Below are positions 15,988 through 21,375 of a stretch of DNA of 64,000 nucleotides, piece after piece. A model generated the notes under the pieces. It was not told the origin of the DNA. It saw only the letters and a program-made list of their open reading frames with translations, and made no database searches. Origin of the DNA: an uncultured bacterium (GTDB lineage Bacteria; Planctomycetota; Phycisphaerae; Phycisphaerales; SM1A02); contig CAIXJC010000027.1 of NCBI GenBank assembly GCA_903919715.1, positions 62,001 through 126,000 on the forward strand, read 5' to 3'. A program made the position numbers and the translations under genes. Each line of letters starts with the position of its first letter. Positions within the stretch are counted from its first letter, which is position 1.

Positions 15988-17250
15988 ATGATTTCAAGCG
16001 CACTGATTCTTTGCGTGATCGCATTGGATTCATCGGGCGCAATTGATAGCGCGCCGGCCAATACGCCCAGCATCATCACTGGAAACAAGGTCAATCTCTC
16101 AAGCAAGATTCCATTCAACGAGCTTGGCCAAGAAGTCACTGTGCCGCCAGCTGCAATTTCGGTTCAAGCAAGAGATGTTCCATGGGATGCGGGAGGTGTG
16201 ATTGAAGTTTCGTGGAAGCCCGCGCCAGATACTGGCACTGCCACAAAATGGGTCATCGAGCGGAGCGAAGCCCTTCAAACTGGATTGACTCCCTGGGCCT
16301 TCGTCGCAGAAGTCCCCATCGACGAAACGGTTGTCTTGGCACCAAAGCTCTCTGCTTCCGCATCGTATTTCTTCAGCGTGACGGCCGTTGGCCCCGAGGG
16401 TTCGAGCGCAGTCGCAACGACGAAGAATGCAGTCACTCCCGAGTGGAACTTTTTTATTGGCGCAAAATTGCCTTTGTTTTGCGCCATTCTTGTTGTGAGC
16501 GCATGCGTGATTTATTACATCCTTGCCGCGCGACGTGGTCGACCAATGAAGGTTCGTCGCATCGCAGCACTTGAAGCGATCACCGACGCTGTTGGACGCG
16601 CGACAGAAATGGGACGCTCCATTCTCTTTGTGCCTGGTATCCAGGACATGGACAACATTCAGACGGTTGCGGGAATCACGGTGCTGGGTCATGTTTCCAA
16701 AACAGCTGCCGAATACGACGCTGCGATTGAAGTGCCGACGAGTCGATCGCTCGTTATGGAAGCGGCGCGCGAAGCGGTGCAGGCCTCCTATCTCGCTGCG
16801 GGTCGCGCCGATGCATACAACGCCGATGGCATTCGATACATCACCGATGAACAGTTCGGATTCGTCGCATATGTCTCGGGGCGAATGGTGCGCGAGAAGC
16901 CAGCGGCTTGCTTCTATATGGGATGCTTCTTTGCAGAGAGTTTGATCCTTGCCGAGACCGGGAACTCCATTGGCGCAATCCAAATCGCAGGGACGGCCGA
17001 GAGCAGCCAGCTTCCGTTCTTCGTCGCTGCTTGTGATTACACCTTGATTGGTGAAGAGTTTATGGCTGCGAGTGCCTATCTCTCGGGCGAACCAGATCAA
17101 ATGGGATCGCTGAAAGGTCAAGATGTCGCGAAGGCGATTGCTGCGACATTAATCATTGTTGGAGTTGTGCTGGCAACTGGCGCCGCACTTGCTCCTCAGG
17201 GCACGATGGCTTCTGCGCTTGAATGGCTGAAGGGAGTGCTCGGATCATGA
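15988..17250 (+). CDS. Membrane-anchored protein with Fn3-like and DUF6754-like domains, unknown function
   Basis: 420 residues from the ATG at 15988. The signal/anchor is MISSALILCVIALDSSGA. Residues about 45-145 look like a fibronectin-III-type beta-sandwich: VPWDAGGVIEVSWKPAPD, ASYFFSVTAVGPEGSS. A transmembrane helix at about 155-177 (LPLFCAILVVSACVIYYIL) leads to a basic stop-transfer segment and a 200-residue cytosolic domain (IAALEAITDAVGRATEMG, LFVPGIQDMDNIQT, CFYMGCFFAESLILAETG), then a second helix near the C-terminus (AATLIIVGVVLATGAALA). I recall this cytosolic domain as DUF6754, unverified. The frame opens at 15856, but only 15988 gives a signal peptide at the N-terminus. It is the first of four coupled genes; its stop overlaps the next start (ATGA). 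No function is assigned. Confidence 0.75.
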   Translation: MISSALILCVIALDSSGAIDSAPANTPSIITGNKVNLSSKIPFNELGQEVTVPPAAISVQARDVPWDAGGVIEVSWKPAPDTGTATKWVIERSEALQTGLTPWAFVAEVPIDETVVLAPKLSASASYFFSVTAVGPEGSSAVATTKNAVTPEWNFFIGAKLPLFCAILVVSACVIYYILAARRGRPMKVRRIAALEAITDAVGRATEMGRSILFVPGIQDMDNIQTVAGITVLGHVSKTAAEYDAAIEVPTSRSLVMEAAREAVQASYLAAGRADAYNADGIRYITDEQFGFVAYVSGRMVREKPAACFYMGCFFAESLILAETGNSIGAIQIAGTAESSQLPFFVAACDYTLIGEEFMAASAYLSGEPDQMGSLKGQDVAKAIAATLIIVGVVLATGAALAPQGTMASALEWLKGVLGS

Positions 17251-17942
17251 AGCGCCTTGTTCCGATGTGGATTGCGATCGTCGCTGGATTTGTCATGCTG
17301 CTTTCAGCATTCTTTCCGATTACGGAAAGTCTCGGCGAAACGATGGGCGATGTTTTTAATGTCGTCGCAGCGATCGCATTCATCCTGGGTGCTGGAAGTT
17401 TGGCGAAAGTAAACCTCGCAAAGATTTCGCAGCGCGATCAGGGGTGGGGATACGCAGCGATTACTTTGATCTGTTTCGCAATCACGCTTGCAGTCGGCCT
17501 TGGAAAGTTCGGCGTTCCCCCGAGCGCACAGTTTCCAGCGCTTGGGTGGTCTGGCGAAAAGGATGCGGAAGGTTCAATCTTTGGTTGGATCTATGAATAC
17601 GCACTCGTTCCGATTACCAGCACGATGTTCGCATTGCTTGCGTTCTATGTCGCAAGTGCCGCATTCCGCGCCTTTCGCGCCAAGAATCTTGAGGCGATCT
17701 TGCTGCTTTCAACGGCGTTTATCGTGCTCCTCGGTCGTACATTCGCAGGAGTCGTGCTGACAGGATGGCTACCCGACTGGGCGAGTGGATTGCGACTGGA
17801 AAATCTTTCGGTCTACATCATGCAGGTTTTTAACACCGCAGGAAATCGTGCGATCATCATCGGCATCGCACTCGGCGTGACCGCAACGAGCTTGCGGATT
17901 CTTCTTGGAGTTGATCGATCTTGGATGGGATCGGGAGACTGA
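17247..17942 (+). CDS. Polytopic membrane protein of the DUF6754 operon, unknown function
   Basis: 231 residues with about six hydrophobic segments: PMWIAIVAGFVMLLSAFFP, VVAAIAFILGAGSLA, AAITLICFAITLAVGL, LVPITSTMFALLAFYVASA, AILLLSTAFIVLLG, and AIIIGIALGVTATSLRILLG. The loop at about residues 90-115 (GVPPSAQFPALGWSGEKD) is the only sizeable polar stretch. The ATG overlaps the stop of the previous gene (ATGA), so translation is coupled, and the gene ends 3 bases before the next. No enzymatic motif is visible. The helical content would suit an integral scaffold or channel subunit; this is inference only. Confidence 0.75.
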   Translation: MKRLVPMWIAIVAGFVMLLSAFFPITESLGETMGDVFNVVAAIAFILGAGSLAKVNLAKISQRDQGWGYAAITLICFAITLAVGLGKFGVPPSAQFPALGWSGEKDAEGSIFGWIYEYALVPITSTMFALLAFYVASAAFRAFRAKNLEAILLLSTAFIVLLGRTFAGVVLTGWLPDWASGLRLENLSVYIMQVFNTAGNRAIIIGIALGVTATSLRILLGVDRSWMGSGD

Positions 17943-17945
17943 CGC

Positions 17946-18848
17946 ATGAGCAAGTTCATCACCATCCTCGAAGGACTTGATCGACGCTGGATTTTCCTTG
18001 CGATGGCGATCTCGGTTGCTGGTCCGATTCTGATCATCGGCATCACGGGCAAGACGCTTCCTGAAACTCCAACTCCTGCAGCACGTGCGGTGTACAGCGA
18101 GATCGAGAAATTGCCAGTCGGAACTCCTGTCTTGATCGCATTCGACTTCGATCCGGCGAGCGGTGGCGAGTTGACTCCAATGGCGACAAGTTTGGTTCAT
18201 CAATGCGCAGCGCGCGGCTTGCGAATGGTTTTTATCGCGCTCTGGCCACTTGGGCCGCAGTTGATCGACGAGACGATCAGGCGTGTGATTCTTGCGGATT
18301 ATCCAAATCTCAAGGAAGGCATTGATTATGTCAATGTTGGATTCCAATCGGGCAACGAAGCGGTGATGAAAGTGATGTTGACTGATTTCGCGAAAGCGTT
18401 TCCGATCACGAAGAACGGAACGGCAGTCGGCGATGTCGTTGCACTCAAAGGAATTCAGCGCGCATCAGATTTCCCATTGCTGGTTGAAGTGTGCGCTGGC
18501 TATCCAGGGGCGAAGGAATGGATTCAATATGTCATCTCTTCCAGCGGCGGCAAGATCAAGATGGTCACGGGATGCACGGGCGTACAGACTCCGCAACTCT
18601 ATCCCTATTACCCAGTGCAATTGAACGGCATGCTGGGTGCGATCAAGGGCGCCGCAGAATATGAATCGCTCGTGAATTCCAGCCTTGCGCCCAAAGACAG
18701 TTCCGCTGCAATTCCAGCGAAATATCTCGAAGCGCAGCGCCGAATGGGACCACAGCTCGGCGCACATTTGTTGATGGTTGGGCTGATCATTCTGGGCAAC
18801 ATCGCATTTTTCGCGCAGCGCAAGTCGAAGGTGAGGGCCACATCATGA
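17946..18848 (+). CDS. Membrane protein with large soluble domain, DUF6754 operon, unknown function
   Basis: 300 residues. One N-terminal helix (IFLAMAISVAGPILIIGIT, about 15-33), an alpha/beta soluble domain of about 230 residues, and a C-terminal helix (GAHLLMVGLIILGNIAFFA) followed by RKSKVR. The soluble part alternates hydrophobic strands and glycine turns: PVLIAFDFDPASGGEL, LRMVFIALWPLGPQL, IDYVNVGFQSGNEAVM, DFPLLVEVCAGYPGAKEW, KMVTGCTGVQTPQLYP. This looks Rossmann-like, but without a recognisable nucleotide or catalytic motif. With only two membrane anchors, the domain probably faces outward or lies on the membrane. The next gene starts inside its stop codon (ATGA). I do not recognise the family by name. 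Confidence 0.75.
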   Translation: MSKFITILEGLDRRWIFLAMAISVAGPILIIGITGKTLPETPTPAARAVYSEIEKLPVGTPVLIAFDFDPASGGELTPMATSLVHQCAARGLRMVFIALWPLGPQLIDETIRRVILADYPNLKEGIDYVNVGFQSGNEAVMKVMLTDFAKAFPITKNGTAVGDVVALKGIQRASDFPLLVEVCAGYPGAKEWIQYVISSSGGKIKMVTGCTGVQTPQLYPYYPVQLNGMLGAIKGAAEYESLVNSSLAPKDSSAAIPAKYLEAQRRMGPQLGAHLLMVGLIILGNIAFFAQRKSKVRATS

Positions 18849-19852
18849 AGCCATCGAAGACGTGGGTCATCATCGTCGCTGTCATTGTTGTTCTTGTCGG
18901 TATTCGCATGTCCATCGGGCAAGGAATGGCGCGTGCGTATGTCGAGCGAGTTGATCAATCTGTTGACGTGAAAGCGAACGCCACTCATGTTGCGACGACC
19001 TTCAAGTGGACGGAGTGGCACCCAGTTCAGCCCAAGATGTACGAGGCGGCGCAGAAAGCGGATGCGAATCAGACCCGTTTCGCATTCAGTTGGGCGAACA
19101 CCATCGGGCTCTGGCTCTCCGCATTCTTCACGCTCGCGATCTTTTCTTTCTTGTACCGCGATAATCCCGGATATCGCCTCGCCGAGGCAGTCATCATCGG
19201 AGTTTCCGCGGCATACTGGGGCGTCGTTGGATTCTGGGACACGCTTGTTCCAAAGCTGTTTGGGGCACTAACCCCCATGCTTGTTCATGAGAAGGTGTTA
19301 CCGAGTTTGCCCGATCCCACGATGGGTCAAGTCGTCGCGATGTACTTCGCGCTGGCGCTGGGCATCATGCTTCTGATGCGCCTCGCTCCCAAGGGCGGTT
19401 GGATCAGTTTGTGGCCGATCGCATTCATCATTGGAGTGACCGCAGGTCTCAAGATCGTCAGCCATGTCGAGAGCGATCTCGTCGCACAGACCGTCGCAAC
19501 ATTCCAGCCGCTTGTCAATCTCAAGTCAGCCGATCACGTGACTCAGTTGTGGCCGACAATCTGGGCGAGTCTGGCAAACATCCTGCTCGTCGTTGGCGTG
19601 CTCTGTTGCTTGACGTATTTCTTTTTCTCAGTCGATCACAAGGGGGCGGTCGGCCGCGTCGCGCGGGTTGGAATCATGTATCTCATGATCACTTTCGGCG
19701 CGGCATTTGGATTTACGGTCATGGGCCGAGTCGCACTGCTCGCAGCTCGTGTCGAATTTCTCTTCGATGATTGGCTCTGGCTGATCGATCCCGCTGGAAA
19801 GCGAATTGTCGAAATGGCTACTGCTGTGGGCTCGATGCTCTGTTGGTGGTAG
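18845..19852 (+). CDS. Polytopic membrane protein of the DUF6754 operon, unknown function
   Basis: 335 residues. The N-terminal helix VIIVAVIVVLVGIRMSIG is followed by about 65 extracytoplasmic residues and then roughly seven helices: WANTIGLWLSAFFTLAIFSF, AVIIGVSAAYWGVVGFW, MYFALALGIMLLMRLA, ISLWPIAFIIGVTAGL, ASLANILLVVGVLCCLTYFF, and VGIMYLMITFGAAFGFTVMG. Charged residues are concentrated in short loops. It is coupled by an ATGA overlap to the gene before it and ends 11 bases before zwf, so the four-gene unit may run on into the pentose phosphate genes. No family is recognised. The number of helices would suit a transporter-like subunit, but nothing specific can be claimed. Confidence 0.75.
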   Translation: MKPSKTWVIIVAVIVVLVGIRMSIGQGMARAYVERVDQSVDVKANATHVATTFKWTEWHPVQPKMYEAAQKADANQTRFAFSWANTIGLWLSAFFTLAIFSFLYRDNPGYRLAEAVIIGVSAAYWGVVGFWDTLVPKLFGALTPMLVHEKVLPSLPDPTMGQVVAMYFALALGIMLLMRLAPKGGWISLWPIAFIIGVTAGLKIVSHVESDLVAQTVATFQPLVNLKSADHVTQLWPTIWASLANILLVVGVLCCLTYFFFSVDHKGAVGRVARVGIMYLMITFGAAFGFTVMGRVALLAARVEFLFDDWLWLIDPAGKRIVEMATAVGSMLCWW

Positions 19853-19863
19853 AACTGCGCGCC

Positions 19864-21375
19864 ATGCGCAAGCCAGATCCATGTGTCCTCGTCATTTTCG
19901 GTGCCTCGGGCGATCTCACCGCTCGGAAGTTGATTCCAGCTTTGTACGAAATGCGCGTCATTGGCGCGCTTCCAGCTGAATTTAAAGTGCTTGGTGTCTC
20001 ACGCCGCGAGAAGAGTGATGAAGAGTGGCGCACAGAACTCGCCGCATCGGTTCAGCAACACGCCAAGCGCTGGGATGCTGTGCGCTGGGCTGAATTTGCA
20101 AAGTGTATTCACTATTTCGCAGGCGACGCTGCGCAGATTGGGATGTATGCCGGACTCGATGAGCGCCTGCGCAAGTTCGATACCGAAAGTGGGACGCGCG
20201 GAAATCGTCTCTTCTATCTGTCGGTCGGCCCCGAGCTTTACGAATCAATCGTTCACCGTATCGAGGACGCAGCACTTGTCACCGAGGGCAAGCGTTGGTG
20301 TTCAATCAATTCGCAGGAACGTTCATGGCAGCGAATCATTATCGAAAAACCATTTGGGCACGATGAGAAGAGCGCGGTCAGTCTCAATCACACGCTCGGT
20401 CGAGTGTTCGAGGAAGAAGATATTTATCGAATCGATCACTATCTGGGCAAAGAAGTGGTTCAGGCAATGTTGGTGTTGCGATTTGCCAACACCATCTTTG
20501 AGCCTGTGTGGAATCATCGCTATATCGACCATGTGCAAATCACGGCGACGGAGACTGTCGGCGTCGGTAATCGAACCGCATTCTTCGATGCAACGGGTGC
20601 GATCCGCGACATGATTCAGTCGCATCTTTTGCAGATTTTCGCTTTCGTTGCGATGGAGCCACCGACGACTGTCACGGCGGAAGACATTCGTGCGGAAAAG
20701 ATCAAGGCTGTGCGGGCGATTCGACCGACATTGCCCGAAGCGGTTGCGTCCCATGGCGTCTTGGGGCAATATGGGAAAAGTGCAGATGAAGCTGGGTATG
20801 TCGATTTGCCGGGTGTTACTTCGGGCTCAACGACGGAAACATACGCCGCAATCAAACTGCATGTGGACAATTGGCGGTGGGCTGGAACGCCATTTTATTT
20901 CCGTACTGGCAAACATATGGCGAAGAAGCGAACAGAGATCGTTGTGCAGTTCAAGCCGCCAGCGGCGAACCTCTTTCAATCCGTACCGCATGGGTCGGGG
21001 CAAGTCGCAGGGAATCGCCTCGTCATCGAAATCGCGCCATTTCAACAAACGCGTTTGCGTTTCGAAAGCAAGGTTCCTGGAACGCCACTGAGTATCGCGA
21101 GCGTCGAAATGCAAGCGGATTTTGACAAGCAATTCGGCGTCGAGGCGCTGGAGGCTTATGGTCCGTTGCTCGTTGATGCGATGCGCGGCGATCAATCGTT
21201 GTACAAGCACCGCATCGAAGTCGAGAGTGGATGGGCTGCGGTGATGCCCTTTCTGAATGCTGCTTCAGCAGGGATACGCAAATCGATCGCGAACAACTAC
21301 GCCCCGGGTTCATGGGGACCTGCGGCCGCCGACGAAATGATGAAGCGCGACGGGCGTGCGTGGCATAACGACTGA
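19864..21375 (+). CDS. zwf: Glucose-6-phosphate 1-dehydrogenase
   Basis: 503 residues. The NADP-binding motif FGASGDLTARKL is at the N-terminus. IIEKPFGHDEKSA and the active-site signature RIDHYLGKE, whose His binds the substrate phosphate, lie near residues 160-205. 'FRTGKHMAKKRTEIVVQFK' and the C-terminal 'PGSWGPAAADEMM' complete the family pattern. It oxidises glucose 6-phosphate to 6-phosphogluconolactone, the entry to the oxidative pentose phosphate pathway. The longer frame from 19771 overlaps the previous membrane protein and is not used. The lactonase gene pgl follows after 33 bases, so both steps are encoded side by side. No gnd is in view. Confidence 0.97.
   Translation: MRKPDPCVLVIFGASGDLTARKLIPALYEMRVIGALPAEFKVLGVSRREKSDEEWRTELAASVQQHAKRWDAVRWAEFAKCIHYFAGDAAQIGMYAGLDERLRKFDTESGTRGNRLFYLSVGPELYESIVHRIEDAALVTEGKRWCSINSQERSWQRIIIEKPFGHDEKSAVSLNHTLGRVFEEEDIYRIDHYLGKEVVQAMLVLRFANTIFEPVWNHRYIDHVQITATETVGVGNRTAFFDATGAIRDMIQSHLLQIFAFVAMEPPTTVTAEDIRAEKIKAVRAIRPTLPEAVASHGVLGQYGKSADEAGYVDLPGVTSGSTTETYAAIKLHVDNWRWAGTPFYFRTGKHMAKKRTEIVVQFKPPAANLFQSVPHGSGQVAGNRLVIEIAPFQQTRLRFESKVPGTPLSIASVEMQADFDKQFGVEALEAYGPLLVDAMRGDQSLYKHRIEVESGWAAVMPFLNAASAGIRKSIANNYAPGSWGPAAADEMMKRDGRAWHND

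Follow-up and report, generated by a model that had tools for sequence, protein, structure and literature searches.

The four adjacent genes g1–g4 of an uncultured planctomycete (lineage SM1A02) are well supported by sequence comparison as one co-inherited membrane-protein system, which appears to extend to seven genes through three partners: a small protein, an ASKHA ATPase of the MutL/GlmL family (MutL) and a barrel-sandwich-hybrid protein (BSH). The system is present in about 84–94 % of the genomes sampled from two phyla and in roughly one in four of those from a further phylum. Its wide presence, frequent amplification, slow evolution and ATPase make a fundamental envelope function in these little-studied bacteria likely, and the defined seven-gene set makes it directly testable.

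The window, by which we mean the whole 64,000-nucleotide stretch analysed, contains g1–g4 beside corA and zwf (Table 1). A preliminary description had placed a four-gene membrane operon here, and ORFs, hydropathy and Pfam agree with it; the identities of corA, zwf and pgl were also confirmed with Pfam. Its account of the junctions was correct as to their type (ATGA, 3-nt gap, ATGA) and not as to their number, as g1–g4 have three internal junctions rather than four, the fourth being the 11-nt gap between g4 and zwf. The zwf gene may be co-transcribed with g1–g4, and is outside the system, adjoining g4 in some lineages only. When g1–g4 were compared with the relative at locus L033, differences amounted to about 0.46–0.51 at codon position 3 and 0.03–0.14 at positions 1 and 2; because differences from relatives concentrate at codon position 3, we consider g1–g4 to be real proteins under purifying selection. 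Each is present as one copy in the source genome.

Table 1. Features of the system in the source genome. Coordinates are those of the window unless a contig is named; transmembrane (TM) counts are from hydropathy.
Feature	Coordinates	Strand	Description	Basis
Small protein, upstream of mutL	about C74:18660-19073 (L082:4661-5074)
mutL	G000:C74:20897-22684
bsh	G000:C74:22720-23847
g1	15988..17250	+	420 aa; signal peptide, Fn3, TM, cytosolic DUF6754 alpha/beta domain (predicted), TM	PF20539, AF2, Fn3 fold
Fn3 domain of g1	16159..16408	+	about residues 58-140; extracytoplasmic (predicted); optional in family
DUF6754 match in g1	16447..17181	+	residues 154-398; TM, alpha/beta domain, TM
g1/g2 ATGA stop/start overlap	17247..17250	+
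g2	17247..17942	+	231 aa; 6-TM polytopic; without Pfam family above cut-off
g2/g3 gap, 3 nt	17943..17945	+
g3	17946..18848	+	300 aa; TM, extracytoplasmic alpha/beta domain (predicted), TM; without family
g3/g4 ATGA overlap	18845..18848	+
g4	18845..19852	+	7-TM polytopic; without family
zwf	19864..21375	+	ATG at 19864, 11 nt downstream of g4

Among the four proteins, only g1 has a catalogued family in Pfam or NCBIfam. It belongs to DUF6754 (PF20539; E 1.2e-115, 385.6 bits against a gathering cut-off of 27), and the Fn3-like domain proposed for it at the outset is borne out by its fold: the match is weak by sequence (Pfam 16.2 bits, cut-off 25; E 0.012) and clear in a Foldseek search with the AF2 model (pLDDT 83.5), in which the outer domain is Fn3 with a probability of 1.00 and a TM-score to target of up to 0.84. 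Fn3 also dominates the matches listed when the whole g1 model is searched against PDB folds. Conservation within g1 is highest in DUF6754: in an alignment of 133 sequences from three phyla 52 of its 251 columns are at least 97 % identical, 22 of these being polar. By contrast, at least 17 of 49 loci of relatives encode a g1 homologue without Fn3, of 265–289 aa, and two homologues of 704–707 aa (L123:10815-12929 and L124:5763-7886) have a greatly lengthened N-terminal region, which together lead us to see the outer part of g1 as an exchangeable add-on. The distribution of charges (positive-inside rule) predicts that the DUF6754 domain is cytosolic and that the domain of g3 lies outside.

The remaining three membrane proteins have no family above cut-off in Pfam or NCBIfam, in agreement with the earlier claim that no homology to a known transporter or secretion system is apparent, and no solved homologue of g2–g4, MutL or BSH was found among PDB sequences. 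The AF2 model of g3 (pLDDT 91.4, pTM 0.87) has the form TM–alpha/beta–TM, with an N-in/C-in topology predicted from Arg-rich flanks; against PDB folds it gave nothing at E<=0.001, only scattered weak matches with TM-scores of about 0.2–0.3. Six strands follow an identical order in the DUF6754 and g3 models, and homology between the two, as paralogues of inverted topology, stays a suggestion because the sequence-profile tests are not significant (hhalign probability <2 %; column-shuffle Z about 1–1.7). Likewise, g2 and g4 have similar TM counts, but profile–profile comparison with hhalign gave a probability of <2 % for paralogy. The core of g4 is about 200 aa in Latescibacterota. Five genomes (G024, G137, G194, G087 and G105) have a large insertion in the TM3–TM4 loop of g2, giving ORFs of 608–661 aa, and in the same genomes g1 does not adjoin g2–g4.

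The survey covered three phyla, namely Planctomycetota, Latescibacterota (the phylum of locus L072) and the phylum of locus L071, referred to below as the third phylum. Among 294 Planctomycetota genomes searched family by family, DUF6754 was found in 76, g2 in 75, g3 in 77 and g4 in 73; g1, g2 and g3 occurred together in 75 and were all absent from 217, and g4 tracked them almost as tightly. The two exceptions are both fragmentary MAGs, one 61 % complete and without g2 only (G160), the other 72 % complete and with g3 and g4 (G067). In the third phylum 113 of 120 genomes have DUF6754, and among Latescibacterota 54 of 64 do. Searches of fetched relatives with tblastn found the order g1-g2-g3-g4 in nearly all sufficiently long loci, including a Latescibacterota locus, and the same order was seen in the third phylum. 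The four families thus co-occur across three phyla, the check proposed in the preliminary description, rather than occurring independently, and this co-occurrence, with the co-linear conservation, excludes a chance grouping.

In the third phylum the four-gene unit is repeated: as many as three units lie in tandem, and a genome may contain as many as seven copies of DUF6754. Between-copy distances were compared over 33 within-genome pairs of units and correlate for every pairing of the four genes (r = 0.92–0.96), from which we infer that a whole unit duplicates and then diverges as one block. Four loci (L109, L113, L116 and L121) have tandem arrays of two to three complete units beside a 547-aa protein to which Pfam assigns no family; L109 has a third DUF6754 gene besides its tandem units, and the array of L121 is also accompanied by a gene for a 23S rRNA intervening-sequence protein. 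Strict genetic coupling, on which the first reading of the operon relied, is not required: in the closed genome G024, g1, g2, g3, g4 and mutL are far apart, yet all are present, so that retention of the genes is independent of their linkage.

Clustering of neighbours identified conserved genes directly upstream of g1 in many relatives, and the four-gene extent first proposed holds for g1–g4 as one unit but falls short of the larger system. The small protein, of about 100–150 aa and with no family model, has a motif like FLESxKPLxFLGSQAMxFLxP; of 27 loci inspected, 17, spread over three phyla, have it upstream of mutL. MutL (600 aa) matches PF13941 (E 8e-128, 427 bits against a cut-off of 27) and keeps the phosphate and adenosine motifs DCGSTTTK, DIGGATTD and SGGVLSH, invariant in A5; it falls below every GlmL cut-off (231 against 475 bits for the NF040745 equivalog, 161 against 204 for glmL_fam). 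BSH (375 aa) has a Biotin_lipoyl match just above cut-off and weak matches to the N-domains of NqrA and RnfC (13–14 bits, cut-off 25). The full order small-mutL-bsh-g1-g2-g3-g4 is found in two Latescibacterota loci (L072 and L132) and one of Planctomycetota (L055), and the order from mutL to g4 in L033.

MutL and BSH follow the membrane genes across genomes. BSH is present in 72 of the 294 Planctomycetota genomes; 68 of these belong to the 76 that are DUF6754-positive. MutL was found in 27 of 30 DUF6754-positive and none of 20 negative Planctomycetota genomes tested, the three positive genomes without it being fragmented assemblies. In the third phylum a single MutL gene accompanies as many as seven copies of DUF6754 (for example, in G387, G395 and G407), and in several multi-copy genomes BSH does not adjoin mutL. 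Five MAGs have MutL without a DUF6754 match (G303, G315, G414, G418 and G460). One 99 % complete genome (G153, f48) has MutL and BSH with no match to g1–g4, and its close relatives carry all. DUF6754 and MutL both evolve very slowly. Gene order and co-occurrence argue that the system is one of seven genes, the small protein, MutL and BSH together with g1–g4; the three partners are unlinked from g1–g4 only in the source genome and some other lineages.

In the source genome the break can be placed by comparison with the L035 locus of a relative. Contig C74 and L035 are collinear through the whole of bsh, as far as about L035 7513 (88.6 % nucleotide identity), and the window is collinear with it from about L035 7540 (window 15908) onward (80.1 %). 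Because collinearity holds on either side, we infer that an ancestral operon was broken within approximately 30 bp between bsh and g1, at window 15908 and G000:C74:23847 (L082:9849), and it is through this split between contigs that the preliminary description covered only half of the system. Unrelated genes flank both new sides of the break; a double misassembly is a less likely explanation of the split.

The surroundings of the system differ between lineages. Extra units adjoin ExbB/ExbD/TonB genes, and extra units also lie near genes for SLBB polysaccharide export, TonB-dependent receptors and patatin-Omp85 proteins. The principal units of the third phylum adjoin a DUF4388 protein. In five loci (L110, L112, L114, L117 and L119), g1–g4 are followed by a DUF4388 protein and several unannotated proteins, and in L119, where this was tested, also by ExbB-ExbD-ExbD-TonB. 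These following genes may extend the system, with a link to the pmf, in a single phylum. Such envelope neighbours are lineage-specific, and the neighbours in other lineages are the housekeeping genes gcvPB, plsX, fabH and zwf. Two roles suggested by genes near mutL were rejected: a protein-peptidase role, because the TldD/PmbA (L072) or M16 (L122) pairs that precede mutL and suggested it are not conserved, and a role in lipid synthesis, from plsX-fabH or gcvPB beside mutL, which are housekeeping genes and are found there in one lineage only.

Comparison of sequences shows a single system whose genes keep their order and duplicate as a block, whose ATPase has intact motifs, and with which MutL and BSH co-occur. 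Our preferred model, to which we assign a probability of roughly 0.4, is that an obligate inner-membrane complex of g1–g4, served by MutL, BSH and the small protein, performs ATP-driven movement or assembly. In this model g2 and g4 would build the membrane core, g3 would form the outside face, joined by the Fn3 domain of g1 where this is present, and the cytosolic DUF6754 domain would present a conserved ligand-binding or catalytic face. MutL and BSH, with the small protein, would act on this face with ATP, the use of which would drive, or activate, the g2/g4 core, and one copy of MutL and BSH could be shared by several membrane units. Most probably the complex would move some component of the envelope across the inner membrane or assemble it there, as suggested by the lineage-specific ExbB-ExbD-ExbD-TonB, SLBB, TonB-dependent receptor and patatin-Omp85 neighbours. 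More tentatively, the set may represent a new class, in which a GlmL-family ASKHA ATPase and a BSH adaptor power a four-subunit envelope machine with several exchangeable membrane units per ATPase pair.

GlmL-family proteins are accessories of B12-dependent mutases, and ASKHA reactivases assemble, load or repair B12 enzymes. Because the relatives of MutL serve such mutases, the main rival to our model, which we consider less likely, is that DUF6754, with g2 and g4, is a membrane enzyme or electron carrier that the GlmL-like ATPase and BSH assemble, load or repair. The nearest proteins to MutL are GlmL and a GlmL relative of ornithine degradation, both B12 mutase accessories; the service of many units by one MutL, the 22 near-invariant, enzyme-like polar residues of DUF6754, and the weak biotin/lipoyl, NqrA and RnfC barrel-sandwich matches of BSH would all suit this explanation. 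However, no cofactor motif was recognised in g1–g4, MutL scores under all GlmL cut-offs, and no B12 enzyme was seen in the neighbourhoods scanned.

The remaining explanations account for less of the evidence. That the complex is a transmembrane receptor, with Fn3 sensing outside and DUF6754 signalling inside, is improbable: an Fn3 fold outside, a conserved domain inside and the DUF4388 protein adjoining the principal units of the third phylum would be in keeping with it, but a receptor would not explain why there are an ATPase and three more membrane subunits, and no known output domain is present. The absence of Fn3 from at least a third of the loci of relatives (17/49), and its replacement by a longer N-terminus elsewhere, weaken the earlier proposal of a link, by way of Fn3, between an external stimulus and a cytosolic response as the core function. 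A mobile or defence module is very improbable. The patchy distribution within the source organism's class and the tandem arrays might hint at one, but searches of 72,556 plasmids and 50,697 phage records gave no match, DUF6754 and MutL evolve very slowly, and near-universal vertical presence in two phyla (113/120 and 54/64 genomes) contradicts it. A chance operon of four unrelated membrane genes, which has nothing in its favour beyond absent annotation, merits almost no credence, being refuted by the way in which the four genes co-occur, keep their order and duplicate as a block.

None of the families tested accounts for the seven-gene set. Although g1 is a clear member of DUF6754, that family spans only one of the seven parts, and no mention of DUF6754 or PF20539 was found in the literature searched. 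Like the system described here, ABC and other named transporters and secretion systems combine a membrane core with a cytosolic ATPase, but the conserved genes encode no ATPase of the ABC, AAA or SecA type, and g2–g4 match no named transporter or secretion family in Pfam or NCBIfam. The likeness to Rnf and Nqr lies in a cytosolic BSH protein (RnfC or NqrA in those complexes) and two polytopic proteins with about six core TM; the BSH similarity is below cut-off, however, an ASKHA ATPase is present here, and no RnfD/NqrB-type, FMN or Fe-S subunit was matched by Pfam in g1–g4. With the GlmL/MutL family (PF13941; NF040745, NF040744 and TIGR01319), MutL shares the ASKHA family and the phosphate and adenosine motifs, but it lies below the GlmL cut-offs and is linked to membrane genes rather than to mutase subunits, no B12 mutase subunit being recognised beside mutL in the loci examined. 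A literature search on the context of GlmL/MutL gave nothing on the seven-gene system. To our knowledge, the GlmL/MutL family has been described solely in a loosely defined accessory role to B12 mutases, and not as a transport motor; under our model, it would gain a membrane role.
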